A DNA stretch of 64,000 nt from Rhizobium sp. BK602 (GTDB taxonomy: Bacteria > Pseudomonadota > Alphaproteobacteria > Rhizobiales > Rhizobiaceae): assembly GCF_014195095.1 (NCBI RefSeq), contig NZ_JACIBC010000002.1, positions 434,001 through 498,000 on the forward strand. The letters run 5' to 3'. The first letter of the stretch is position 1. Each line of letters begins with the position of its first letter. The translations under genes and the position numbers were made by a program. Under the pieces are notes generated by a model. It made no database searches and was not told where the DNA came from. It was given only the letters and a program-made list of their open reading frames with translations. Shown piece by piece: positions 24,139 to 48,469 of the stretch.

Positions 24139-24215
24139 CGGAGTGTAGCGCAGTCTGGTAGCGCACCACGTTCGGGACGTGGGGGTCGAGTGTTCGAATC
24201 ACTCCACTCCGACCA
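24139..24215 (+). tRNA. tRNA-Pro (anticodon CGG), prophage integration target
   Basis: CGGAGTG pairs with CACTCCG. The anticodon arm CCACG-TTCGGGA-CGTGG gives CGG, the T arm is GAGTG-TTCGAAT-CACTC, and CCA is encoded at 24213-24215. Its 3' end faces the integrase gene 107 bp away, the usual geometry for phage insertion into a tRNA 3' half. The attachment core should be a stretch of this 3' end repeated beyond the right edge of the window. Confidence 0.93.
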
Positions 24216-24286
24216 GCGAAAGCCCTTATTTCTTAGGGCCTTGATCCCGAACAGGACTTTCTTCGCGAAAACCATTTTCTAGTGAT

Positions 24287-24322: not shown

Positions 24323-25438
24323 TTAGAAAGCGTTCGCGGCCTGCTTCTGAAAGTCCGGATGTGCATGAGCGTAGGTGCGCTCAAACTCTTCTGCCGTCAT
24401 GCCCAATGATGCCGCTGCCTGTTCGATCTCGACACCGGCTTGAGCCAGCCAGGTTGCTCTCGTGTGGCGCAGAACATGCGGAGTAATGTCCTCGCCAAAG
24501 CCCGCGAGCGAGCGGATCGATCGGAAAGCCTTGTGAGGCTTTACTATCTTTTCGCCACCGTAGTGGACGGCATAGCGCAGGGTGATTTCTCGGCCCTGCT
24601 CATCGATCGTGGTGTCTGCCTTTTTCCAGTAATGCAGAAACCGTAGAAGGCGTGGCGGGATCTTGACCGGTGTCTTGCGTTTATTGTGCATCGTGCGCTC
24701 GCCCTGAGACTTGCGATAGATGACGCCTCGTTCGAGATTGACGTGGCCGCCGGTCGTGTTTGGTATCCATTGTAGATTGAGGATCGCGCTGAGACGCGTG
24801 CCGGTGTAGAGGCCGATCATGATAATGCGGACCAGGTGAGGATAGCGCCAGCCTGTCCGTATCCATTTATTTGGTTCGCGCGTCTCAATGTCGAACGTGA
24901 CTGGAACCCATCCTAGGGCAACCAGCAACAGCTTTGCCACTTCCCATCGGCTCAGCCAGCTTTGGCGCGGTTCCCCCTTGTCTGGCAAGGTCACCTTCGG
25001 CACTATGTCGAGCGTCTCTTCGGCATGGTAATGGTTTATGGCTGCGCGAAATACCTCTAGATCGCGCCGGGCCCCCCCTTTGTTGCCGCGATCATCTACG
25101 TAATCCCGATAGGTTTGCCCCCTGAGCTCGACAAGCGTCAACTCTCCGCAAAAGTCGTTCACGCGATCGAGGGCCGAGATCGTCTCCTTTGGTCGCGCGG
25201 TCGTGGGGGCTATGTCCGTCGCATAAACGATGATGACGTCGCCTACCGTGACTTCAGCGGAGCGACTACTGCGCTGCGGCCGGTATTGATTGGTGATGTA
25301 GTCGGCAAGCTTTCCCTGAGCTGCTTCAACTTCAGTTTCGCAGCATTCCGTGGGGATACGCTTGCCTCCGTCCTTGATGAACCATGTGCCGGTGTCTGGT
25401 CTGAGCCAGAGGCGGGCTGGTCGCTTTTTTTGAGGCAT
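24323..25438 (-). CDS. int: Phage tyrosine integrase
   Basis: 371 aa. An N-terminal arm-binding segment (ARLWLRPDTGTWFIKDGGKRI) and SAM-like core-binding region precede the catalytic domain: Arg in GLYTGTRLSAILNL near residue 213, HVLRHTRATWLAQAG (H-x-x-R), and the nucleophile in ERTYAHAHPD near residue 357. Catalyses insertion and excision at tRNA-Pro. Its first 196 nt overlap the 3' end of the upstream excisionase-like gene. Confidence 0.95.
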   Translation of the reverse strand: MPQKKRPARLWLRPDTGTWFIKDGGKRIPTECCETEVEAAQGKLADYITNQYRPQRSSRSAEVTVGDVIIVYATDIAPTTARPKETISALDRVNDFCGELTLVELRGQTYRDYVDDRGNKGGARRDLEVFRAAINHYHAEETLDIVPKVTLPDKGEPRQSWLSRWEVAKLLLVALGWVPVTFDIETREPNKWIRTGWRYPHLVRIIMIGLYTGTRLSAILNLQWIPNTTGGHVNLERGVIYRKSQGERTMHNKRKTPVKIPPRLLRFLHYWKKADTTIDEQGREITLRYAVHYGGEKIVKPHKAFRSIRSLAGFGEDITPHVLRHTRATWLAQAGVEIEQAAASLGMTAEEFERTYAHAHPDFQKQAANAF

Positions 25439-26140: not shown

Positions 26141-27943
26141 TCAGGCCTCGCGCGCGGTCAGGCTCTTGCGCCAGTCGAAGAAGCCGAGGGCGCCCTTGAC
26201 GGGGATGAAGTCGATGGGCTTGGGATTGCGGAGCACGAAGCCGTAGCGACCGAAGAACCACGGGCTTCCCATCGTGGTCACGACATCGACGATCTCGGCC
26301 GTGCCGACGATACCGCCGCGCGGGAGGTCGTTCATGCCTGGGAAGGTGCGCAGGTCATCGAAGCCCGCGCCGGCGTAGCGGGCGGTCTCAAGGCAATAGC
26401 GCCATTCGTCTCGCGTCATGCCCTTGGCGGCATGCAGGCAGATCGGGCCACGGATCTTGGTCGACCAGTCGCGATTTTCGACCGGCTTGCCGAGATGGAG
26501 AATGCAATGCACCCATGGCTGGCGAATCGACAGGGCTAGTTGCGGCAGGTCATCATAGCTCATTGCACCATACCCCCCCCCGTGCCGGACCATTTCCTTC
26601 AGCGGCATGCTTTCGATCCATTCGCGCATGGCGAAGGCGTGGTCGAGGGTCTTGTTTTCGTCGAAGACCTGCTTGACGGCGGCGAGCATGTCGGCGGTTT
26701 TGAGGCCCGACCGCTCGCCAGTCTTCCGGTCTCGGGCGAAGGCAAGCGACTTGGCGCGCTGGACGATGCCAACGACCATGGCGCCGGAGACGATATGCTC
26801 GAGGCAGAAATTTACGGCGATATCCCGCGCGACCTGCGGTCCATCAGCCGTTATCTGGCCGGCGATGATGTGGGCATCGCGGATGACATAATGCGGATTG
26901 AAGAAGCTCTCGACACCGGCCATGACGAGATCGTTGATGCTGTCCCCGCTGGGAGCCCCGTCAAGCGCTTTCAGCAATATATGCTCGACGGCGGCGCGGT
27001 TCGGCCGCTCGACCTTGATCTTGCGGTCGCAGCGCCCATCGCGCAGCAGGGCTTCGTCGATCGCTTCCGGCCGGTTGGTAGCGAGGATGACGAAGGCGCC
27101 CATGGTGTTGAGACCATCCATCTCGGCAAGGAACTGCGCGACCTGGCTTTCCTCCCAGGGCATGACGCGGCGCGCGCGGCCGGTGCGATCGGGAAAGAGC
27201 ACTTCGGCCTCGTCGAAGAAGACGGTCAGCGGATGCTTGTGATGGGCGGCATACTCCCTGGCGAATTTGAAGATCGCGCGGATCGTCTCCTCTGTCTTGC
27301 CGACATACGGAGACTGGATCTGTGGCCCGTTGACGACGAGCACTTCAGCCTTTGCCCCATAGACGCGCCCGACGGCGGCCGCCGCGGCCTTGGCGAACAT
27401 GGTCTTGCCGCAGCCGGGCGGACCGTAGAGCAGCACGCCTTTCGGTGTGCGCATGCCGTAATAGTCATAGAGTTCCGGATGAAGCTTCGGCTCCTCGATC
27501 GCCTCGACCAGCGCGGCGCGGGCCGTATCATTGCCGACGATGTCATCCCATGCGGTCGCATGGTTGACTTCGAGTAGGTAGTCTTTCACCGCTTCGCGCG
27601 CTTCCGTATATGAGCGCGGCAAGCTCTGCCGGCGATCGTCTCGATCATCCGAGAAGGGACGATATGCATCGCCGAACGACTGACGTACAATATCGGCATA
27701 GATGCCGGAGAGAATGTCGCCCGATGAAGGAAATATTCTGAGGTCACCTGTGATTGAGCGATTGGACGTTTGCCCACCAAGGAGGCCGCGTCCGCAATTC
27801 GGGTCGCCACACCAGCAGATGCCGCGCTTGTCGCGCTGGTGCTGGCGTTCGGGTTCGCGCTGCATCTTGCCAAAATCTTCCATTGCTCGGCTCCTTGGAT
27901 CGTAAGGGGAAAGGGGAATGTTGGGTGGCCGGCGCCTAGCCAT
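26141..27943 (-). CDS. AAA+ ATPase fused to ASCH domain
   Basis: 600 aa. An N-terminal Cys cluster (CWCGDPNCGRG) is followed by an AAA+ module with Walker A GPPGCGKT (174-181), Walker B VFFDEAE (241-247), sensor ATNRPE and Arg finger region LRDGRCDRKI. Residues 461-600 form an ASCH domain (ALSIRQPWVHCILHLGKPVENRDW, GPICLHAAKG), an RNA-binding PUA-like fold. The junction is three glycines encoded by a G9 tract. With eight G the AAA+ frame would stop in an ATGA overlapping ASCH start 26563, so these were probably two coupled genes. The start 27943 has AGGAG. Confidence 0.8.
   Translation of the reverse strand: MARRRPPNIPLSPYDPRSRAMEDFGKMQREPERQHQRDKRGICWCGDPNCGRGLLGGQTSNRSITGDLRIFPSSGDILSGIYADIVRQSFGDAYRPFSDDRDDRRQSLPRSYTEAREAVKDYLLEVNHATAWDDIVGNDTARAALVEAIEEPKLHPELYDYYGMRTPKGVLLYGPPGCGKTMFAKAAAAAVGRVYGAKAEVLVVNGPQIQSPYVGKTEETIRAIFKFAREYAAHHKHPLTVFFDEAEVLFPDRTGRARRVMPWEESQVAQFLAEMDGLNTMGAFVILATNRPEAIDEALLRDGRCDRKIKVERPNRAAVEHILLKALDGAPSGDSINDLVMAGVESFFNPHYVIRDAHIIAGQITADGPQVARDIAVNFCLEHIVSGAMVVGIVQRAKSLAFARDRKTGERSGLKTADMLAAVKQVFDENKTLDHAFAMREWIESMPLKEMVRHGGGYGAMSYDDLPQLALSIRQPWVHCILHLGKPVENRDWSTKIRGPICLHAAKGMTRDEWRYCLETARYAGAGFDDLRTFPGMNDLPRGGIVGTAEIVDVVTTMGSPWFFGRYGFVLRNPKPIDFIPVKGALGFFDWRKSLTAREA
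26573..26581 (-). repeat. G9 mononucleotide tract at AAA+/ASCH junction
   Basis: Nine C on the plus strand, nine G in the coding strand. G9 keeps both domains in frame. G8 ends the AAA+ protein four codons later in a TGA overlapping the ASCH ATG. G10 ends it at a nearby TGA as well. A slippage-prone site. Confidence 0.85.
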
Positions 27944-30420: not shown

Positions 30421-30531
30421 TTAAGGCCGGTCACGGTCGATGTCCTTTGAAACCCAATGGAAAAACCAGGCGACCAGGATGAGCGGCAGGAAGATCTTGA
30501 TGGCGGCGACGACGATGTCCGGCGTGATCAT
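30421..30531 (-). CDS. Small membrane protein overlapping the reverse transcriptase gene
   Basis: 36 aa. ITPDIVVAAIKIFLPLILVAWFF is one clear transmembrane helix, followed by a charged tail HWVSKDIDRDRP. The ATG overlaps the reverse transcriptase stop (ATGA), implying coupling to it. Position at the end of a DGR cassette is notable but may be incidental. Too short for family assignment. Confidence 0.5.
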   Translation of the reverse strand: MITPDIVVAAIKIFLPLILVAWFFHWVSKDIDRDRP

Positions 30532-31550
30532 GGGTGGCCTCGGCAAAGCTGGTGGCCGCTTTCCATGGTGCAACAAATCCCAAGGCTCTTCATGAGATTG
30601 CGGCTGTCGGCCCAATTGGCGTGGCCGGTCCATGCAGCGATAAAGCGTTCCAGCCGTTCGTGCTCGCCGGCGGCGCGATAGGCGGCGATCTTGCGCCGGG
30701 CGCGCACGACGCTGTCGCGACGCAGCAGCTTGTGGTCGGGCCAGATGCGATAGCCGACGAAGTTGACGCCACGGCCGATCGGCTGGATGCTCCATTTGGA
30801 AAAGCGCAGGCCTAGCCGATCGCGTGACAGGTCCTCGATCGAGGATCGGACCCGACGAAGATGTCCCATCGATCCTCCGAGGACGACGATATCGTCCATG
30901 TAGCGATACCAATGGCGCTCGCCGAGATCCTGCTGCAGATGGCGATCGACGACGCCGGCATAGATATTGGCGAAGATCTGCGAGATGAGATTGCCGATCG
31001 GCAGGCCTATGCCCGTTCGCGGCAGCATGGTTTCCAGCAGGCGCAGCGTGCCCCGGCATGAGATCTTCGCCTCGATCAGCCGCCAGAGTGTATTGTGCTC
31101 GATGCTGGCGAAGTATCGCGAGAAGTCGGTCTTCAGCGCATAGAGCGCGTCGCCGCCGCGGGTGAGGCGGCGCATGTCGGCCTGGACCGACAGGGCGGCG
31201 GCGTGCGTTCCCTTGCCGGGACGGCAGGCGAAAGCCCTCGGCAGCAGCGTCGCCTCGAAGATCGGGCTGATCACGGCGCAGAGCGCATGCTGGGCGACGC
31301 GATCGCGGAAGGGAAGCGCCGATATCAACCGTTCTTTCGGATCGAAGATGCGGAATTCGTGCGGTGTGCCCGGCTGATAGGAACCGTCGAGCATGGCGGC
31401 GGCCAGGTCTTGCAGGTTGATGATGGAGAATTCCTTGAACTCAAGGAAGCCGGGGGTGAGGCGCTTGCCGAGGGAGGTCAGGCGAAAGGCCTCGCGCATA
31501 TTGGCATCGGCGGTGATCGCGCCGATCAGATTGCGGTGCTTTTTTCCCAT
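30528..31550 (-). CDS. DGR reverse transcriptase
   Basis: 340 aa, the usual size for diversity-generating retroelement RTs. Motif 3 is ALKTDFSRYFASI with Asp142. Motif 4 is IGNLISQ (185-191), the IGxxxSQ form that distinguishes DGR RTs from the QGxxxSP of other reverse transcriptases. Motif 5 is RYMDDIVVL (YMDD 217-220). There is no maturase or endonuclease domain, so it is not a group II intron protein. It copies TR RNA into adenine-mutated cDNA with Avd. The frame continues upstream through the TR; ATG 31550 matches the conserved N-terminus. Confidence 0.95.
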   Translation of the reverse strand: MGKKHRNLIGAITADANMREAFRLTSLGKRLTPGFLEFKEFSIINLQDLAAAMLDGSYQPGTPHEFRIFDPKERLISALPFRDRVAQHALCAVISPIFEATLLPRAFACRPGKGTHAAALSVQADMRRLTRGGDALYALKTDFSRYFASIEHNTLWRLIEAKISCRGTLRLLETMLPRTGIGLPIGNLISQIFANIYAGVVDRHLQQDLGERHWYRYMDDIVVLGGSMGHLRRVRSSIEDLSRDRLGLRFSKWSIQPIGRGVNFVGYRIWPDHKLLRRDSVVRARRKIAAYRAAGEHERLERFIAAWTGHANWADSRNLMKSLGICCTMESGHQLCRGHP

Positions 31551-31859
31551 GATGTCCGTGCTTGATTGCCGGTCGCGGGTTTCGACGGCCAAATCGCCGC
31601 TACTCCCCGCTGTACCGGACCTTGCAATGTGTTCGCCGAAGCCGGAAGGTTGGGCCGACCACCCTGATGCCGCCGACTTGGCTGCACCCGTGGAAGATGA
31701 CCGGCGAGGCCGTGACCGTCGCCGAGCCGAAATCGGGTCGTCGCTACCGCCGCGCGCGGAGATGTTGTCATTCGAGTTCTCCGGCCAGTAGTCCAAGTTC
31801 GCATAGCGGGAACCGGCGTTCGAGCCGTTGATCCACGAGCCGCCGAAGATGGACGGGCG
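31551..31859 (-). ncRNA. DGR template RNA core (TR plus spacer)
   Basis: The interval holds the TR followed, in transcript order, by 189 nt of spacer before the reverse transcriptase start. In the Bordetella phage DGR the TR and a spacer of comparable length form the RNA used to prime and template cDNA. RNA ends here are inferred and probably extend into avd. Confidence 0.6.
31740..31859 (-). repeat. DGR template repeat (TR)
   Basis: 120 bp starting eight bases after the avd stop. It contains 22 adenines on the coding strand, mostly in AAC/AAT, ATC, GAC and TAT/TAC codons that allow broad amino-acid change. Relative to VR1 10 of these adenines differ, relative to VR2 14; all 98 other positions are identical in the three copies. 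A 13-nt G/C-only run (31747-31759) marks the 3' end. Confidence 0.97.
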
Positions 31860-31867
31860 CCGCAACG

Positions 31868-32245
31868 TCATTGCCCCGACCTCCCGCTGCCCTTCGCGGT
31901 CTTGATCCATTGGCCGAGCATCGCGCCGGCTTCAGCGAGGTAGCGCAGCGCCACCGCATGCTGCCGGTATGAGATGAGCTTCAGCTTGGGATCGGCCGCA
32001 AAGCGCAACCAGAAACGCAGCGTCGCTAGGTTGGCGTCCGCCGCATAAAGACGCGAAGCCTGTTTCGACTTCGCGGCCTCGTAGAGAAGGCCAACCTGAT
32101 CGAAGATCAGTCCGATCAGCCGGTCGCGCAGCGTCGCGTGGCGACGCGGGCAATTCTGGATGATCGGATAGAGGTAGGTCACAACGGCCTCGTATTTTTC
32201 AATAATCGCCAGATCGCGGGCGTTTACATGTTCATCGCGTGTCAT
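31868..32245 (-). CDS. avd: Accessory variability determinant Avd
   Basis: 125 aa. A helical protein of the four-helix-bundle Avd family (LAIIEKYEAVVTYLYPIIQNCPRRHATLRDRLIGLIFDQVGLLYEAAKS, ADANLATLRFWLRFAADPKLKLISYRQHAVALRYLAEAGAMLGQWIK). Avd pentamers bind the RT and TR RNA and are needed for retrohoming in Bordetella phage. Placed between the second target gene and the TR, the same order as in that phage. The basic tail KTAKGSGRSGQ may bind RNA. Confidence 0.92.
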   Translation of the reverse strand: MTRDEHVNARDLAIIEKYEAVVTYLYPIIQNCPRRHATLRDRLIGLIFDQVGLLYEAAKSKQASRLYAADANLATLRFWLRFAADPKLKLISYRQHAVALRYLAEAGAMLGQWIKTAKGSGRSGQ

Positions 32246-32273
32246 GATCGGCGACCGTTCTGGGATGGAGAGT

Positions 32274-32293
32274 GTCCGCGCTTCCGCGCGGAC
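32274..32293 (-). other. Hairpin downstream of VR1
   Basis: GTCCGCGC-GGAA-GCGCGGAC on the coding strand: a perfect 8-bp stem with a GGAA (GRNA-type) tetraloop, beginning at the last base of the target stop codon, 17 bp after the VR. The Bordetella phage target has an 8-bp, GRNA-loop hairpin in the equivalent place that stimulates retrohoming. No T tract follows, so it is not an ordinary terminator. Confidence 0.85.
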
Positions 32294-33219
32294 TAGGCAG
32301 GCGCCATGTGGTCGCTACCGCCGCGCGCGGAGATGCTGCCAGCCGAGTCCTCCGGCCAGTAGGCCAAGTACGCACAGCGGGAACCGGCGCTCGAGCCGTT
32401 GATCCACGAGCCGCCGAAGACGGACGGGCGGGGATCATCCGGATGGCCGTCGGTGCCCCATTGCCACATCGTGCCGGTCGCATCGAAAAGACCGTATCGG
32501 CTGATGAAGCGTTCGCCACCGCCATTGAAAGATCCGGTTGTCCTGGGCTCGCCATCGCGCGAGCATCGCTCCCTGACGCCGTAGGCGGCCGTGAAGAACT
32601 CCTCGGCGCTGAGTAGGTGCTTGTCGTGATGGGCGTAGATTTCTTTGGCCGTGGTAAAGTCGAGCTTTCCGTAGGTGCTGCCATCCGGTCGCAGCGGCAG
32701 GTCTTCGCCATCCGCGATGGTCGCGCCGAAGCGGCTCGTGCCATGCTCATGGTGATTGATGCCAAGCAGGTAGATGTCGGCCCAGAAACGGCGGCCGTTG
32801 CCCATATCGATCAGCGCCATGCCGCGCGGATCGGGGCATGCGGGACCGAAGCCGATATTCCAGAGTGAATAGGGATTGATCTCCGGAATGGCGTCGCCGC
32901 CGGCGGTGCCTGTTGCGTGGCCGCCAGGTGCGAAATGAAAGCCCGCGAAATATCCGGCGGTCAGGGGATTTTTCCGGCTGACATCTTCGACGATCAGCTG
33001 GCCTGCCGCGTCGATGGTGACGGCATAATCCTTGCCAGCGTCCAGATTGCCGAGCGCGATCGGCGTGTCGTTGTCGAAGCGATGGATGGTGCCATCAATC
33101 TCGACAGCCGTACCGGCCGAGATGTAGAGGCTCGTGCGGTCCGGCGTGACCAGGATTGATTTTGTCCAGTCCTGGCTTTCAATGCGAATAATGCGATTGA
33201 CTTCGGCTGCTGCCGTCAT
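32293..33219 (-). CDS. Mtd-like variable target protein 1
   Basis: 308 aa. Resembles Bordetella phage major tropism determinant: INPYSLWNIGFGPACPDPRGMALID, FWADIYLLGINHHEHGTSRFGATIADG, KHLLSAEEFFTAAYG and a C-type-lectin-fold end with VFGGSWINGSSAGSR. The N-terminal about 95 residues form strand-rich particle-attachment or trimerisation modules. VR residues are about 264-303, on the ligand face of the lectin fold. No signal peptide, consistent with a virion protein. AAAGGA precedes ATG. Confidence 0.93.
   Translation of the reverse strand: MTAAAEVNRIIRIESQDWTKSILVTPDRTSLYISAGTAVEIDGTIHRFDNDTPIALGNLDAGKDYAVTIDAAGQLIVEDVSRKNPLTAGYFAGFHFAPGGHATGTAGGDAIPEINPYSLWNIGFGPACPDPRGMALIDMGNGRRFWADIYLLGINHHEHGTSRFGATIADGEDLPLRPDGSTYGKLDFTTAKEIYAHHDKHLLSAEEFFTAAYGVRERCSRDGEPRTTGSFNGGGERFISRYGLFDATGTMWQWGTDGHPDDPRPSVFGGSWINGSSAGSRCAYLAYWPEDSAGSISARGGSDHMAPA
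32311..32430 (-). repeat. Variable repeat 1 (VR1)
   Basis: 120 bp matching the TR except at 10 positions, each an adenine in the TR coding strand (plus-strand TR coordinates 31765, 31768, 31771, 31772, 31778, 31792, 31799, 31804, 31819, 31850). Changes include Asn-to-Ser, Asp-to-Ala, Tyr-to-Cys and Asn-to-Tyr. The stop codon follows 17 bp beyond its end. Confidence 0.97.
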
Positions 33220-33249
33220 GGTCTTGATCCTTTGTTGTGATCAGGGATT

Positions 33250-33269
33250 GTCCGCGCTTCCGCGCGGAC
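33250..33269 (-). other. Hairpin downstream of VR2
   Basis: The same 20-bp GTCCGCGC-GGAA-GCGCGGAC hairpin, at the same distance from VR2 and again starting on the last stop-codon base. Conservation of stem, loop and spacing between the two targets argues for function. Confidence 0.85.
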
Positions 33270-34132
33270 TAGGCAGGCGCCATGTGGTCGCTACCGCCGC
33301 GCGCGGAGAGGTTGCCATGCGAGGACCCCGGCCAGTAGCCCAAGTCCGCATAGCGGGAACCGGCGACCGAGCCGCCGAGCCACGAGCCGCCGAAGAGGGA
33401 CGGGCGGGGGTCGTCGATATCCCCGTCAGTGCCCCAGACCCAGAGATTGCCGGTCGCCTGCATGAGGCCGAACTTGCTGGTGCGTGCGGCATCGAGGCCA
33501 GTCGTTTTCGGGTCGCGGTCGGCGGATGACCGTTCCGTGACGCCGAAGGCGGCGGTGCGGAATTCGTCATAGGTCAGCAGCCGCTTGCCATGGCTGGCAT
33601 AGATGCCGGCGGCCGTCTTGAAGTCGAGACGGTCGAGCGAACGGCCATCGGCGATCTCGATGCCGTGGCGGCTTGTGCCGTGCTCCTTGTAGTCGACCCC
33701 AAGCAGATAGATGTCGACCCAGAAACGATGTCCGTCCTTGGCCTCGACGAGCGTCATGCCGCGCGGATCGGGGCAGGCAGGACGAAAGTCCATGTCCCAG
33801 AGGGAATAGGGGTTGATCGCAGGGATAGCATCGCTGCCATTGCGCTCCAGGGCGCAACCGCCGGGAGCGGCATGAAATCCCGCCACGAAGCCGGAGTCGC
33901 GCGGATTGCCCGATAGGGCCTGCGCAACCGGCTTGCCGTTCGCGTCGATGCTGACACCGTAGTCCGTGCCTACGGCGATGTGGTCGAGGGCGATCGGTGT
34001 TTCCTGCCCGAAGGCATGCGGCTGTCCGTCGATCTCGATTACGGTCCCGGCGCGGATCGCGACGGTGGTCGCCGCGCTCGTGGCGAGGATGGGCGTTGTC
34101 AGGTCGGAGCGATGGATGCGTATGCTTGTCAT
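33269..34132 (-). CDS. Mtd-like variable target protein 2
   Basis: 287 aa, paralogue of the adjacent target. Shared blocks with Mtd: INPYSLWDMDFRPACPDPRGMTLVE, FWVDIYLLGVDYKEHGTSRHGIEIADG, KRLLTYDEFRTAAFGVTE and LWVWGTDGDIDDPRPSLFGGSW. VR residues about 243-282. It starts at ATG 34132 after AAGGAACAGGAC; the longer frame is spurious. The N-terminal part diverges from target 1 more than the lectin part, so the two may attach differently or bind different ligands. Confidence 0.93.
   Translation of the reverse strand: MTSIRIHRSDLTTPILATSAATTVAIRAGTVIEIDGQPHAFGQETPIALDHIAVGTDYGVSIDANGKPVAQALSGNPRDSGFVAGFHAAPGGCALERNGSDAIPAINPYSLWDMDFRPACPDPRGMTLVEAKDGHRFWVDIYLLGVDYKEHGTSRHGIEIADGRSLDRLDFKTAAGIYASHGKRLLTYDEFRTAAFGVTERSSADRDPKTTGLDAARTSKFGLMQATGNLWVWGTDGDIDDPRPSLFGGSWLGGSVAGSRYADLGYWPGSSHGNLSARGGSDHMAPA
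33287..33406 (-). repeat. Variable repeat 2 (VR2)
   Basis: 120 bp matching the TR except at 14 positions, all coding-strand adenines in the TR (31763, 31768, 31772, 31777, 31778, 31780, 31792, 31799, 31819, 31820, 31828, 31829, 31832, 31850). Seven of these are also changed in VR1, often to a different base, so the two VRs were diversified separately. Confidence 0.97.
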
Positions 34133-34163: not shown

Positions 34164-34472
34164 TTACTGGGCGGCTTCGAGCAGGCCCTGCCATTCATGG
34201 AAGCCGGAGAGCTTGCGGTTCGTGCGGGCATCGGTGCCGGGCGGCAGGGTGATGACCTCGCGCAACCAGGCAACGGCGGCCATCATGTCGGCGATCTCGT
34301 CGGCAAGGGCGTCGATGTTCGGCTTGCCGCTCTTCGGATCGGCCTTGTCGATGCCCTGGGCGAGGCAGCGGCCGACGATCTGCAGCAGTTCGCCGCTTTC
34401 CTCGGTCAGCTTGTTCAGCACCTGGCGGCGAATGAGGTCGTTCTCGGGGAGCCAGAGGGTGATATCGGCCAT
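34164..34472 (-). CDS. MazG-like nucleotide pyrophosphohydrolase
   Basis: 102 aa. The all-helical MazG pattern is visible: NKLTEESGELLQIVGRCLAQGID, then DALADEIADMMAAVAWLREVI, giving EExxE and ExxD metal ligands. Phage MazG-like enzymes hydrolyse NTPs or alarmones. Start ATG 34472 overlaps the stop of the preceding small gene and has AGGGA eight to nine bases upstream. Confidence 0.78.
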   Translation of the reverse strand: MADITLWLPENDLIRRQVLNKLTEESGELLQIVGRCLAQGIDKADPKSGKPNIDALADEIADMMAAVAWLREVITLPPGTDARTNRKLSGFHEWQGLLEAAQ

Positions 34473-38325: not shown

Positions 38326-38403
38326 CGCAGGGTAGGGAAGCCTGGTCATCCCATGTGGTTCATACCCACAAGATCGCTGGTTCGAATCCAGCCCCTGCAA
38401 CCA
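38326..38403 (+). tRNA. Phage initiator-like tRNA (anticodon CAT)
   Basis: The cloverleaf closes with CGCAGGG / CCCTGCA, seven pairs of which only the first, C1-A72, is mismatched; that mismatch is the hallmark of bacterial initiator tRNA. The D loop has AGCCTGGT as in tRNA-fMet. The anticodon arm TGTGG-TTCATAC-CCACA has CAT but only two, not three, adjoining G-C pairs. The T arm is GCTGG-TTCGAAT-CCAGC and CCA is encoded. It lies inside the prophage, transcribed with the early right operon. Confidence 0.85.
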
Positions 38404-44360: not shown

Positions 44361-44475
44361 CGTGGCTTCCCTCCGTCGATTGCATCGACCGTAGCGCTTT
44401 CGCGCGTCGGTATGCAAGCGGCCTACACGGGCGCCAATTTCGAATTTTTCACCATCAATGACGGGGCGGATTGAC

Positions 44476-46707
44476 ATGTATATGGAGACGCTTTTCGGCG
44501 GCGCCACCACGGCAGACCTTCACGGGAGATTCGGCCATCTGCCGCCGATGATCATTGACAGTTTCGCCGGCGGCGGCGGGGCATCGACCGGGATTGAGAT
44601 GGCGCTTGGCCGCTCGCCCGATATCGCCATCAACCACAATGCCGATGCGCTGGCGCTGCATGCCGCTAACCATCCGGATACGCTGCACCTGTCGGAAAAC
44701 GTCTACAAGGTCGACCCGCTCGACTATCTCAGGGGACGGCATATCGGGCTGGCGTGGTTTTCGCCCGATTGCAAGCATTTTTCCAAGGCCAAGGGCGGCA
44801 AGCCCGTCGAGCGCAATATCCGCGATCTCTGCTGGATCATACCCGGATGGGTCGACCGCATCCAGAAGAGCGGCGGCAAGGTCGACGTGATCATCATGGA
44901 GAATGTCGAGGAATTCAAGGATTACGGCCCGCTCGTGCAGACCGATCGCGGGCTGATGCCGGACCCGGAGCGCAAGGGCGAGACCTTCCGCAAGTGGTGC
45001 AAGACTATCCGGCGCCTTGGCGGCAGGATCGAACATCGCGAGTTGCGGGCCTGCGACTACGGCGCACCGACCATCCGCAAGCGCCTGTTCGTCATCATCC
45101 GCTTCGACGGGCAGAAGATCGTCTGGCCGAAGCCGACACATGGGGCGCCCGCCGACCCGGATGTGATCGCCGGGCGCAAGCTGCCCTGGCGCACCGCGGC
45201 GGAGATCATCGACTGGTCGCTTCCGTGCCCGTCGATCTTCGATAGCGGCGACGAGATTATGGCCAAGCATGGCCTGAGGGCCGTCCGCCCGCTCGCCGAC
45301 AACACCATGGCCCGCGTGGCGCGCGGGATGAAACGCTATGTGCTCGATGCGGAGCGGCCGTTCATCGTCAGCATCGCACATGGCGATAGCGGCGGTCGGC
45401 GGGAATATTCGATCGACGATCCCTATGGTGTCGTGACTGCTGGCGGCATCGGCCACGCTGTCGTGTCCCCGCATCTTGCTTCCTATTACAGCCACTCAGG
45501 AAATCGCAGCGAGCGCACCAGCGAGATCGATGACCCGTTGGCGACGGTGACCTGCGAGAACCGCCACGCGGTGATCGCGCCATCCGTTATCCGATTCAAT
45601 ACCGGCGCGACGGGGCAGGATGCGCGCGAGCCATTGTCGACCGTCACGGCAAACGGCTACATCAAGCGTCCTGGCGGCGCAGCGCCCCTTGGTGTCATCG
45701 CTCCCCACCTGATGACGATGCGCAATTCCGGCAAGCCGTTCAACGAGGCCGACGAGCCGGCGCATACGATTACGGCTGGCGGCGCTGGCTTGACGCTTGT
45801 GGCGCCGGTCCTGACGGCGGCGCAGCAGGGAGGATCGGTGCGTAGCGTGGAGGCACCACACCATACAATCATCGCCAGCGCGAAGGATCAGAATTCGATC
45901 ATCGTTCCAACGCTGGTCGGCTGTGGCGGCAGGGCCGGGCAAAGCAGGCCGCGCGGCGGAGACGAACCGACCGCGACAGTGACAGCCAAGGCTGACGTAT
46001 GCGTCGCTACCGCCTTCATTGCTCAGCACAACAATGACAGCCGCCGCGTCGGCGGCGTCAATCCGGGCCGCGGCGCGGACGAGCCGGTCTCGACAGTGAC
46101 GGCGACGGGCGCGCAGCAGGGCGTGGTTTCCGCTTTCATTTCCCGCCAGTTTAGCACGTCCACCGGCCATGAGGCAGACAAGCCGCTTGCGACCACGATG
46201 GCGGACGGTGGCGGCAAGTCGATGCTCGTTGCGCCTTACCTTCAGGCTTATTACGGAACGGGCGACGGTGGCGAGGAAGACCAGCCTTGCCGCACGATCA
46301 CCACCAAGGACCGCCACGGCCATGTCGAGGCCTGGATCGACGCACCGCCCTTCACCGAGGCGCAGGCGGCTCGGGCGCGGCAGGTCGCCGATTTCCTGCG
46401 GGCGCACGGGTTCTGGGACGAGCGCGAGTTCGTGACCATCGAGATCGGCGGAGAGACCTTCGTCATCGTCGATATCGGCATGCGGATGCTGACGCCGCGC
46501 GAGCTGTACAATGCCCAGGGCTTCCCGCCGCACTATGTCATAGATGGCGTCTGGATCTCGCCGGAGAGCGGCGGAGAGCCGACCTGGCGGCCATTCGCCA
46601 AGTCGGTGCAGGTGAGTTGCGTCGGGAATTCGGTCTCGCCCGTCATGGCGGAGGCGCTGGTTGCCGCCAATGCCGATCATTGCCGCGTCGAAAGGATGGC
46701 GGCATGA
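44476..46707 (+). CDS. C5-cytosine DNA methyltransferase with repeat array
   Basis: 743 aa from ATG 44476; ATG 44482 is an alternative. Motif I is IDSFAGGGGASTG. Motif IV is WFSPDCKHFS, with PDC where PPC is usual. Motif VI is ENVEEF and motif VIII YGAPTIRKRLFVI. Motifs IX-X are MLTPRELYNAQGFPPHYV and SCVGNSVSPVMAEALV. Between VIII and IX lie nine degenerate repeats of the form D-x-P-x-x-T-V-T, replacing a conventional target-recognition domain. Predicted to methylate phage DNA and defeat restriction. Confidence 0.9.
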   Translation: MYMETLFGGATTADLHGRFGHLPPMIIDSFAGGGGASTGIEMALGRSPDIAINHNADALALHAANHPDTLHLSENVYKVDPLDYLRGRHIGLAWFSPDCKHFSKAKGGKPVERNIRDLCWIIPGWVDRIQKSGGKVDVIIMENVEEFKDYGPLVQTDRGLMPDPERKGETFRKWCKTIRRLGGRIEHRELRACDYGAPTIRKRLFVIIRFDGQKIVWPKPTHGAPADPDVIAGRKLPWRTAAEIIDWSLPCPSIFDSGDEIMAKHGLRAVRPLADNTMARVARGMKRYVLDAERPFIVSIAHGDSGGRREYSIDDPYGVVTAGGIGHAVVSPHLASYYSHSGNRSERTSEIDDPLATVTCENRHAVIAPSVIRFNTGATGQDAREPLSTVTANGYIKRPGGAAPLGVIAPHLMTMRNSGKPFNEADEPAHTITAGGAGLTLVAPVLTAAQQGGSVRSVEAPHHTIIASAKDQNSIIVPTLVGCGGRAGQSRPRGGDEPTATVTAKADVCVATAFIAQHNNDSRRVGGVNPGRGADEPVSTVTATGAQQGVVSAFISRQFSTSTGHEADKPLATTMADGGGKSMLVAPYLQAYYGTGDGGEEDQPCRTITTKDRHGHVEAWIDAPPFTEAQAARARQVADFLRAHGFWDEREFVTIEIGGETFVIVDIGMRMLTPRELYNAQGFPPHYVIDGVWISPESGGEPTWRPFAKSVQVSCVGNSVSPVMAEALVAANADHCRVERMAA
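45408..46341 (+). repeat. Nine degenerate repeats inside the C5-methyltransferase gene
   Basis: Successive units contain DDPYGVVTAG, DDPLATVTCE, REPLSTVTAN, DEPAHTITAG, EAPHHTIIAS, DEPTATVTAK, DEPVSTVTAT, DKPLATTMAD and DQPCRTITTK, each followed by a hydrophobic V-x-P/A-x-[IVL] strand, roughly 25-40 residues apart. The DNA is diverged, so the units are old protein repeats. Confidence 0.8.
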
Positions 46708-47255
46708 AGCCCATGACTGCGCAGGATATTCTCGATGGCCTGATCGGCTGGTCCGAGAACAAGATATGGGCGGCGGAGCTGGCCTTTTTTGCCGGTATGC
46801 GGCGGATCGACTTCTGGACGCTGGAGCCGACGGCTTCGCAGGGGTTCCGCACCTGCTCCTATGAGATCAAGATTTCGCGGGCGGATTTCCGGCGTGACAG
46901 CGACGAGAAACAGAGCGGCGCGCTGATGTATTCCGACCGCTTCTGGTATGTCACACCGCCCGATCTCCTGCGCCGGGACGATCTGCCGGACTGGGCAGGC
47001 CTGCAGGAATGGACCGGCAAGGAGTTCCGTGTCATCCGCCGCGCGCCGAAGCTGGAGCGGCGGGAGCCGAGCTGGGAACTGCTAGTCTCGATCCTGCGCA
47101 ATTCCGGCGATTGCCGGCGCGATATCGGGCTGATCAAGGCGCAGCTGACCTATTATCAGGCTCGCGAGGCACGGGAGAAACGCTGGAAGCAGGTTGCCGA
47201 CGACCGCAAGATGGAGCGCTTTCTGCGCCGCCATCGGCAGGGAGGCGCGCTATGA
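46704..47255 (+). CDS. MmcB-like PD-(D/E)XK protein
   Basis: 183 aa, overlapping the methyltransferase stop (ATGA). DFWTLEPTASQGFRTCSYEIKISRADFRRDSDEKQSGALMYSDRFWYVTPPDLL has the E-x-K and aromatic strand pattern of MmcB-like nuclease-fold proteins. The tail (AQLTYYQAREAREKRWKQVADDRKMERFLRRHRQ) is a basic helix. Could be a repair or restriction-type nuclease paired with the modification genes. Confidence 0.65.
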   Translation: MKPMTAQDILDGLIGWSENKIWAAELAFFAGMRRIDFWTLEPTASQGFRTCSYEIKISRADFRRDSDEKQSGALMYSDRFWYVTPPDLLRRDDLPDWAGLQEWTGKEFRVIRRAPKLERREPSWELLVSILRNSGDCRRDIGLIKAQLTYYQAREAREKRWKQVADDRKMERFLRRHRQGGAL

Positions 47256-48469
47256 AGCCCCTCCAGCCGACGCTCTTCGAGGGCAGCAAACGGCTCGTCT
47301 ATGACGAGGCGATCGAACTGACGCTGCAATCCATGCAGGCCTACGGCCCGACGCATGAGCATTGGGGTATTGCCTGGTCTGGCGGCAAGGACAGCAGCGC
47401 GACGTTGACGCTGATTCTGCACCTTCTGGAAACTGGCCGCCTCGCTCCACCGAAGAGCCTGACGATCTTCTATGCCGACACCCGGCAGGAGCTGCCGCCG
47501 CTCGCTATGGCCGCGGCCGAGATCATGCGGCAACTGGCCGAGCGCGGTATCCGCTGCGAGGTGGTCAGGGCGCCGCTCGACAAGCGATTCCTTGTCTACA
47601 TCCTCGGCCGGGGCGTGCCGCCGCCGAACAACAATACGCTGCGCTGGTGCACGCGCCAGATCAAGGTCGATCCGATGACGCAGGCGCTCGCTGAGCGGCT
47701 CGACGCGCTGGACGGCAATATCCTGATGATCACCGGCGTCCGGCAGGGTGAGAGCGCGGTGCGCGACGGGCGCATCGCCATGTCCTGCGGCAAGGACGGC
47801 GCGGAGTGCGGGCAAGGCTGGTATCAGCAGGTGCTGCCGCAATCGAAGGGCATCCGCGGGCGGATCGCCACGCTGGCGCCGATCCTGCATTGGCGGGTCT
47901 GCAACGTCTGGGACTGGCTGCGCATCTATGCGCCCATGCGCGAATATGGCGGCTGGGCGACGGCGGCGATCGCCGACGCCTATGGTGGCGACGAGGCGAC
48001 CGAGATCAATGCTCGGACCGGCTGCATCGGCTGCCCGCTGGCCAGCAAGGAAAAGGCGCTGGAAACGGTGCTGGCCTCGCCCGATTGGGCTTACCTTGCG
48101 CCTTTGCGCGGGCTGAAGCCGCTCTATCGCGAGCTGCGGGAGCCGCGTCATCGGCTGCGCAAGGCTGGGCTAGAACGCCTGAAGGACGGCTCTATCGCAG
48201 CCAATCCGCAGCGCATGGGGCCGCTGACCTTTGAGGCCCGGCTGATGGCGCTCGACCGCGTTCTCTCGATTCAAGCCGAATGCAATGCTGCGGCGGCACG
48301 CCTCGGCCGGCCGGTCATCGATCTGCTCAATGCGGAAGAGGAGGCGCGTATCCGCGCGCTGATCACGGCCGGAACCTGGCCGGACGGCTGGGATGGCGAC
48401 GAGCCGGTCGCCGACACGCCGATGGACACGATTTTTGCCGACGGCTCCGTGCAGCCGTTGTTTATTTGA
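47252..48469 (+). CDS. PAPS-reductase / DndC-like PP-loop protein
   Basis: 405 aa from ATG 47252, which overlaps the previous stop. PP-loop WSGGKDSSATLTLIL (SGGKDSS 43-49), FYADTRQELPP, and RWCTRQIKVDPM. A C-terminal cysteine cluster includes SCGKDGAECGQGW and RTGCIGCPLASKEKALETV. The pattern is shared by PAPS reductases and DndC, the sulfur-transfer enzyme of DNA phosphorothioation. No dndA/D/E partners are visible, so its product is uncertain. Confidence 0.82.
   Translation: MKPLQPTLFEGSKRLVYDEAIELTLQSMQAYGPTHEHWGIAWSGGKDSSATLTLILHLLETGRLAPPKSLTIFYADTRQELPPLAMAAAEIMRQLAERGIRCEVVRAPLDKRFLVYILGRGVPPPNNNTLRWCTRQIKVDPMTQALAERLDALDGNILMITGVRQGESAVRDGRIAMSCGKDGAECGQGWYQQVLPQSKGIRGRIATLAPILHWRVCNVWDWLRIYAPMREYGGWATAAIADAYGGDEATEINARTGCIGCPLASKEKALETVLASPDWAYLAPLRGLKPLYRELREPRHRLRKAGLERLKDGSIAANPQRMGPLTFEARLMALDRVLSIQAECNAAAARLGRPVIDLLNAEEEARIRALITAGTWPDGWDGDEPVADTPMDTIFADGSVQPLFI

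Follow-up and report, generated by a model that had tools for sequence, protein, structure and literature searches.

The DNA studied here is a 64,000-nucleotide stretch of Rhizobium sp. BK602 (contig NZ_JACIBC010000002.1, positions 434,001 to 498,000, forward strand), referred to below as the window and numbered from its first letter. A diversity-generating retroelement (DGR) of the BPP-1 kind, complete in all its named parts, lies on the minus strand between 30528 and 34132. Read along that strand, the order is target 2, target 1, avd, template repeat (TR) and reverse transcriptase (RT), the order annotated in Bordetella phage BPP-1 (mtd, avd, TR, brt). An initial annotation had proposed that a rhizobium-order prophage holds a complete DGR of BPP-1 type with two Mtd-type targets, in the BPP-1 gene order; both claims were borne out, the first by the parts found and the second by the BPP-1 annotation. 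Its span, 30421 to 34132, was right for the cassette but wrong in its start coordinate, the true end being the RT stop at 30528. The open reading frame (ORF) at 30421-31059 had no Pfam match and crosses the RT in another frame.

Both targets are Mtd-like. Target 2 (33269..34132, 287 amino acids) matched PHROG 11262, 'tail protein', at 3.2e-69 and the Pfam family mtd_2nd above its cut-off, both scored on an ORF starting at 34273, and target 1 (32293..33219, 308 amino acids) matched the same two families (PHROG 11262, 6.8e-68). They carry the variable repeats (VRs) VR2 (33287..33406) and VR1 (32311..32430), each of 120 bp, which stop 15 nt short of the target stop codons. At the stop codon of target 2 lies a DNA hairpin (33250..33269) with a GC-rich 8-bp stem, GTCCGCGC/GCGCGGAC, and the loop GGAA, and the hairpin at the stop of target 1 (32274..32293) is identical in stem and loop. 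They are followed by avd (31868..32245), coding for a 125-amino-acid accessory protein, the TR (31740..31859), exactly 120 bp long with a 13-nt G/C run close to its 3' end, a TR-RT spacer (31551..31739) and the RT (30528..31550), 340 amino acids from its own start codon at 31550 to the stop at 30528. All these features are on the minus strand.

The repeats differ only at adenines. Over 120 positions, 10 of the 22 TR adenines and none of the 98 other bases are changed in VR1 (hypergeometric P 5.6e-9); in VR2 the counts are 14 of 22 and 0 of 98 (P 4.8e-13). All 24 differences in the two VRs together (24/24) are thus at adenines, and 13 of 40 codons are changed in one or both. A chance resemblance between TR and VRs was ruled out by these adenine-only differences. 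Just beyond the shared 120 bp, the TR has G and both VRs have C. Efficient homing in BPP-1 requires a hairpin with a GRNA loop and a stem of 7-10 bp (PMC3240598). Since the GGAA loop and the 8-bp stem fit that description, the window hairpins match the BPP-1 homing element; in the window, each G/C-rich VR end has such a hairpin downstream and the TR has none.

The RT carries the motifs YRYMDD and IGNLISQ and, scored on a 460-amino-acid ORF, matched PF00078 at 6.6e-16 and PHROG 1423 at 1.7e-114. Its nearest matches among phage records were BPP-1 Brt and its kin, with Brt 53.5% identical over 96%. Avd was recognized by PF22296 (E 1.4e-26), by NCBIfam NF033474 (113.8 bits, cut-off 80) and by PHROG 3206 Avd. 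The idea that the RT belongs to a group II intron, a retron or a defence system instead of a DGR is already refuted. Such models do match it weakly, but at 93.9 bits for a cut-off of 300 (group II intron) and 37.4 bits for a cut-off of 235 (retron), with all defence models far below their curated cut-offs, while BPP-1 Brt is the nearest phage RT and a TR/VR system is present. Grouping with introns or retrons was the outcome that the initial annotation had named as fatal to its proposal, and it did not occur.

Related loci and change in their variable repeats

Target matches were found in 2 of 148 genomes of the genus (own included), 11 of 394 in the family sample (own and two marginal included), 4 of 397 in the order sample (counting the window's own and one already found) and 3 of 385 in the class sample (own and two marginal); the plasmid collection searched gave no target relative. 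Further loci came from RT searches in IMG/VR, where the best 80 of at least 569 RT loci were kept, so that the locus sample leans to near relatives. A TR/VR pair was found in 86 of 101 loci, some of the 15 without one having little upstream sequence. After 10 repeat or near-repeat elements were dropped (including L067, kept for the pair comparison), 76 rows remained: 54 in a clade with RT at least 62% identical and 22 outside it. The 62% line, like a 71% line used below, was drawn after seeing the data. The 54 clade rows are 53 contigs (L017 and L085 are the same contig twice) and include the window prophage (L054); the rows are related, and counts over them are not independent events.

Across the clade (85 TR/VR pairs, with one contig counted twice), 990 of 2004 TR adenines are altered in the VRs, as are 79 of 8628 sites with another base. 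A GRNA-loop hairpin follows 49 of 83 clade VRs and 0 of 53 clade TRs. Some close relatives have diverged mainly in their VRs. In L010 and L011 the target bodies are identical over 500 nt, while 14 of the 17 VR differences are at adenines and the TRs differ at 3 of 125 positions. L017 and L087, with bodies 98.0% identical and identical TRs, show 10 VR differences, 10/10 at adenines. Outside the clade, L067 and L068 share 500 identical body bases and identical TRs, and 19 of their 20 VR differences are at adenines. In looser pairs (bodies 90.8-93.6% identical) 14-18 VR differences were counted, 12-16 of them at adenines.

Two loci also have a VR far from the cassette (L099:10139-10270 and L104:789-917), one about 4 kb downstream of the RT start and one about 5 kb upstream, as DGRs reaching distant targets within the same contig.

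The targets and their place in the prophage

The two targets are 57% identical to each other, and target 1 is 35% identical to BPP-1 Mtd in an alignment that begins near Mtd residue 47. Target 1 matched Mtd crystal structures by sequence at E 4.8e-46, and its AlphaFold model matched Mtd structures in Foldseek (E 1.8e-26, template modelling score 0.79-0.80; PDB 1yu0-1yu4, 2iou). The model has a predicted local distance difference test score of 78.3 and a predicted template modelling score of 0.82, and much of the VR segment (residues 271-293) is poorly modelled. The VRs sit at the 3' ends of targets with a C-type lectin fold. The second and the C-type lectin domains of Mtd are present, the former as PF21916 (mtd_2nd) in both window targets and three relatives tested in Pfam, but the N-terminal domain is not. 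The targets are likely variable binding proteins, which would bind host or environmental ligands.

Among 53 clade rows, some with contigs cut, 28 have two VRs, one has three and 24 have one in the sequence available. A tree of 88 targets contained one supported group (96/100; 25 rows), the target-1 lineage. By hand count, the copy adjoining avd falls in this group in 22 of 24 multi-target loci with RT at least 70% identical; the exceptions are L078, where the order is swapped, and L100, with neither copy in the group. The far copies lie elsewhere in the tree, apart from the one in L078 and from the middle copy of L021, which arose by a later duplication. Since avd-adjoining copies group together and far copies fall outside, targets 1 and 2 of the window come from an old duplication, with their order mostly kept. 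In the deeper part of the tree the order is not kept: 23 of 53 avd-adjoining copies are in the group, and the whole tree shows 18-19 changes of order label.

Mtd-like domains were also seen in three loci (L048:9230-11005, L049 and L050) where nothing nearby matched the window RT or Avd. In L048, DUF2793 is fused to the Mtd-like part of the protein. No RT match came from the genomes of L049 and L050, and only a 23% one from that of L048, so these are orphan or fixed Mtd-type proteins. In addition, gene 17, the tail fibre gene, of LR745708.1 and LR745707.1, both named Escherichia phage T7, matched a window target at 31.6-35.5%. Natural T7 is not expected to have an Mtd-like match in its tail fibre.

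The prophage is about 54.9 kb long and bounded by an exact 49-bp repeat in the 3' part of a tRNA-Pro gene (24139-24215), with attL at 24169..24217 and attR outside the window at G000:C2:513012-513060. A tyrosine integrase (24323..25438, minus strand; PF00589, 2.6e-10) adjoins the tRNA, and a phage repressor (37074..37742, minus strand; PHROG 4 transcriptional repressor, 5.8e-24) marks the far end of the integrase-repressor arm. With smaller genes omitted, this minus-strand left arm runs repressor, pyrophosphohydrolase, target 2, target 1, avd, TR, RT, DUF5131, recombination directionality factor, AAA and integrase. On the plus strand, the right part encodes proteins for replication, the terminase, the portal, a protease, the capsid, the tail sheath and tube, the tape measure, the baseplate and an endolysin, the gene set of a contractile-tail phage. 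Beside the baseplate genes is a gene with weak tail and tail-fibre matches (L043:7842-8726).

This placing recurs among relatives. A same-strand integrase was found downstream in 21 of 42 clade loci with at least 2.5 kb of downstream sequence, and elsewhere in 1; outside the clade the figure was 0 of 15, which is weak because most of the integrases used as queries were clade sequences. Restricting the rows to RTs of 71% identity or more, again with 2.5 kb of downstream sequence, gave 20 of 27 (hand count, one contig twice). PHROGs run on chosen ORFs identified 8 of 10 as integrases. In L010, tail genes lie past the integrase on the other strand.

Other genes of the prophage were recorded. A tRNA-Met (CAT) lies near the repressor at 38326-38403, and tRNA-Met was also found in 5 of 16 related DGR loci scanned (L015, L021, L044, L071 and L072). 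The right arm holds, upstream of the replication gene, a 749-amino-acid DNA methyltransferase (44458-46707) and a phosphoadenosine phosphosulfate reductase-like gene (47009-48469; PHROG 12882, 4.2e-246). Between the integrase and the directionality factor, a gene at 26141-27943 codes for a 600-amino-acid protein with an AAA-type ATPase region and a C-terminal PHROG 3193 domain.

Template, spacer and RT in one reading frame

The initial annotation had missed a relation between the TR and the RT, as well as the place of the cassette in the integrase-repressor arm and the old paralogy of the targets. In the window, an ATG at 31871 overlaps the avd stop (ATGA) and opens a predicted 447-amino-acid frame (30528..31871, minus strand) that runs through TR, spacer and RT without interruption to 30528. 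A second in-frame ATG lies upstream, at 31910, inside avd.

The same arrangement was found in most of the clade. For this comparison, the target frame was chosen by motif and not by longest ORF, which mis-assigned some loci. The TR, read in the frame of the target, is in phase with the RT in 47 of 53 clade contigs, and the spacer is free of stops in the RT frame in 49 of 53; the two remaining frames are stop-free in 6 and 23. All 53 have an in-frame ATG where the TR begins or shortly before it, the nearest being 0-15 nt away; outside the clade, 6 of 22 loci have one within 30 nt. Phase, open spacer and ATG occur all three together in 46 of 53 clade contigs and in 2 of 22 outside loci.

The lengths point the same way. 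Distinct TR-to-RT lengths are multiples of three in 21 of 26 cases (binomial P 9e-7 against 1/3, phylogeny ignored). In clade pairs with alike spacers and unequal TR-to-RT lengths, that inequality is divisible by three in 14 of 14 pairs whose spacers are at least 80% alike and in 166 of 211 at 70%, and the target-to-avd gap in such pairs gave 5 of 9 and 52 of 163. The pair comparison was unselected for phase and used total lengths, and its pairs are not independent. Over single loci, the target-to-avd gap shows no phase (12/18/23). Single spacer gaps in unselected pairs, where the spacer ends are uneven, were multiples of three in 11 of 26 and 256 of 630. A count of 19/19 spacer gaps as multiples of three was discarded as circular, its pairs having been picked among in-phase loci.

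Predicted ribosome-binding strength in the window is -11.0 kcal/mol at the TR ATG versus -3.2 kcal/mol at the RT start. A G-rich avd end reaching -5 kcal/mol or lower was found in 46 of 51 clade loci and 7 of 17 outside; the strength at the TR ATG is confounded, since the avd end is conserved and G-rich. The spacer also behaves as a conserved RNA structure together with the TR 3' end. In an alignment of 20 hand-picked rows of the 54, 15 of 41 predicted pairs changed on both sides and 98.5% of cells pair; 0 of 500 shuffles scored as high, and slid controls gave 19-51%. The spacer RNA of BPP-1 brings in RT and Avd and serves to prime the cDNA, and a motif at the avd end halts cDNA synthesis (PMC12875486). 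Taken together, these comparisons suggest that the frame is kept and not the peptide. A frame kept without constraint on its peptide would fit translation that continues past avd, across the template and on into the RT.

Interpretation and known systems

We conclude with high confidence that a BPP-1-type DGR resides in the 54.9-kb contractile-tail prophage and that its RT and Avd are predicted to randomize TR adenines into two paralogous Mtd-type genes, likely variable binders. Its parts, the adenine-only TR/VR differences, the target hairpins and adenine-directed VR change in some close relatives are all observed. The RT with Avd would copy the 120-bp template as RNA, randomizing adenines, and the mutated copy would be pasted into the 3' ends of the two target genes; homing probably takes the BPP-1 route, with the cDNA primed in the spacer. 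This copy is probably still active. Comparison of some relatives points to mutagenic homing.

Several observations weigh against parts of this interpretation. VR change is not always seen: six pairs of separately named contigs with identical bodies also share identical VRs (L015/L016, L060/L061, L080/L108, L087/L088, L104/L105 and L125/L128). That the cassette is a silenced remnant, with both targets diversified in the past and the element now dead in this prophage, seems improbable. The collections searched gave a single copy of the locus (the IMG/VR copies L009 and L054 are identical, appear to be the same prophage and bring no independent information), and the RT's own start, at -3.2 kcal/mol, is without a good ribosome-binding site. 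However, no ORF is broken, YMDD is retained in the RT, the hairpins are undamaged and the att repeats exact, the TR shows no non-adenine drift from either VR, and some relatives show recent adenine-directed change. A less remote alternative, though still on the unlikely side, is that the targets are not virion receptor-binders and belong to an early-left (integrase-repressor) operon, perhaps expressed in the lysogen, binding for example a competing phage or a surface ligand. The initial annotation had taken them for receptor-binding proteins of the virion, which they may or may not be. Pfam found no Mtd_N (PF18454) in the window targets or the three relatives tested, while both domains appeared in the BPP-1 Mtd control, and Mtd presumably attaches to the tail fibre through that N-terminal domain (PMC10743442). 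The cassette also lies outside the tail operon, between integrase and repressor and on the strand opposite the head and tail genes, unlike BPP-1 mtd; the downstream integrase is common in the clade (20/27 and 21/42, the 0/15 outside being weak), and another gene, the one beside the baseplate genes, has weak tail and tail-fibre matches. Against this, the operon could be induced late, and the sequence and fold of the targets are those of a tail-tip protein.

The shared frame has its own competing explanation, which we regard as less likely than not but by no means remote: it may be a by-product of conserved RNA and shared descent, with translation of the RT beginning solely at its own start. The spacer RNA has a conserved structure, and selection on its peptide was ruled out, as changes by codon position (225/164/177) show no third-position excess and the composition is not that of coding sequence, the second position being richest in G/C. 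In all 54 rows the RT begins with a start codon of its own, so that additional internal initiation is probable; the frame is broken in 7 of 54 (L014, L059, L082, L084, L090, L098 and L100); and 18 of the 22 loci outside the clade likewise have no stop in the RT frame across the TR, more often in a different phase. The G-rich avd end looks like a ribosome-binding site, occurs to some extent outside the clade (7/17 versus 46/51) and may instead be the reverse-transcription terminator described for BPP-1 (PMC12875486). Set against these points are the 21 of 26 distinct lengths in multiples of three, the 166 of 211 alike-spacer differences versus 52 of 163 for the target-to-avd gap, and an in-frame ATG no more than 15 nt from where the TR begins in every one of the 54 rows, versus 6 of 22 outside, even at up to 30 nt.

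If the template is translated into the RT, ribosomes would enter at the ATG on the avd stop and cross TR and spacer into the RT. A single avd-TR-RT RNA could then be messenger, folded primer platform and mutagenesis template, with enzyme synthesis and template folding or copying mutually exclusive on each molecule, a simple control of the hypermutation rate. We offer only as a tentative proposal, with doubts about the whole, that in this clade the TR is translated in the frame of the target after restart at avd to give an N-terminally extended second RT and a brake on hypermutation, and that expression of the two Mtd-like proteins from the lysogeny arm would let a resident prophage, and not just a particle, display a changing binder. 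A TR within the RT frame is an unusual layout that would couple enzyme production to template use, and the integrase-repressor place raises the question of whether a lysogen makes diversified binding proteins.

DGRs, multiple targets, paired Mtd-like targets and overlap of TR and RT ORF are already in print. Several VRs were reported in 28.6% of 948 DGRs (PMC6642488). The initial annotation had singled out the two Mtd targets as most striking; there are indeed two, and their distinctiveness is weakened by the Faecalibacterium prophage Lagaffe_CP, which also has two Mtd-like DGR targets, in another host group (PMC11792537). Structural group 3 of DiGReF is an arrangement class with the TR overlapping an annotated RT ORF, and the group 3 section of that paper makes no mention of phase conservation, a start codon at avd or a clade (PMC3521204). 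By term search, the text of PMC8144416 does not use the name Mtd, and the Sinorhizobium prophage paper PMC12429752 contains none of the terms DGR, retroelement or reverse transcriptase. A TR-RT frame locked in phase was not described in the literature searched, most subscription journals lying outside it. This member of the BPP-1 kind is set apart by paired targets that have no Mtd_N, by its position in the lysogeny arm and by a template that falls within the RT frame. The last of these is the one that a specialist would not expect.

Among the closest known systems is the prophage of Rhizobiales bacterium isolate AFS050986 (L021), of the same genus, with the same cassette, an integrase 78% identical and the same tRNA-Pro site; it differs in having three targets, the middle one being the later duplicate of the target-1 lineage. 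With BPP-1 the cassette shares order and strand logic, the target-side hairpin (PMC3240598) and identities over aligned parts of 53.5% for the RT, 35% for the target and 44% for Avd, and the TR/VR differences of BPP-1 are likewise mostly at adenines (18/22). BPP-1 has one target, here there are two, and these are without Mtd_N. In BPP-1 (L004) the cassette stands at the end of the tail genes, whereas in the window it is in the integrase-repressor arm of a contractile-tail phage, and the BPP-1 TR is out of phase and without an ATG, whereas in the window the TR shares its frame with target and RT and an ATG overlaps the avd stop. A cassette closely related to the founding one of BPP-1 is thereby placed in another type of phage, with a contractile tail, and in another host group, and comparative evidence indicates that some of its relatives diversified recently.

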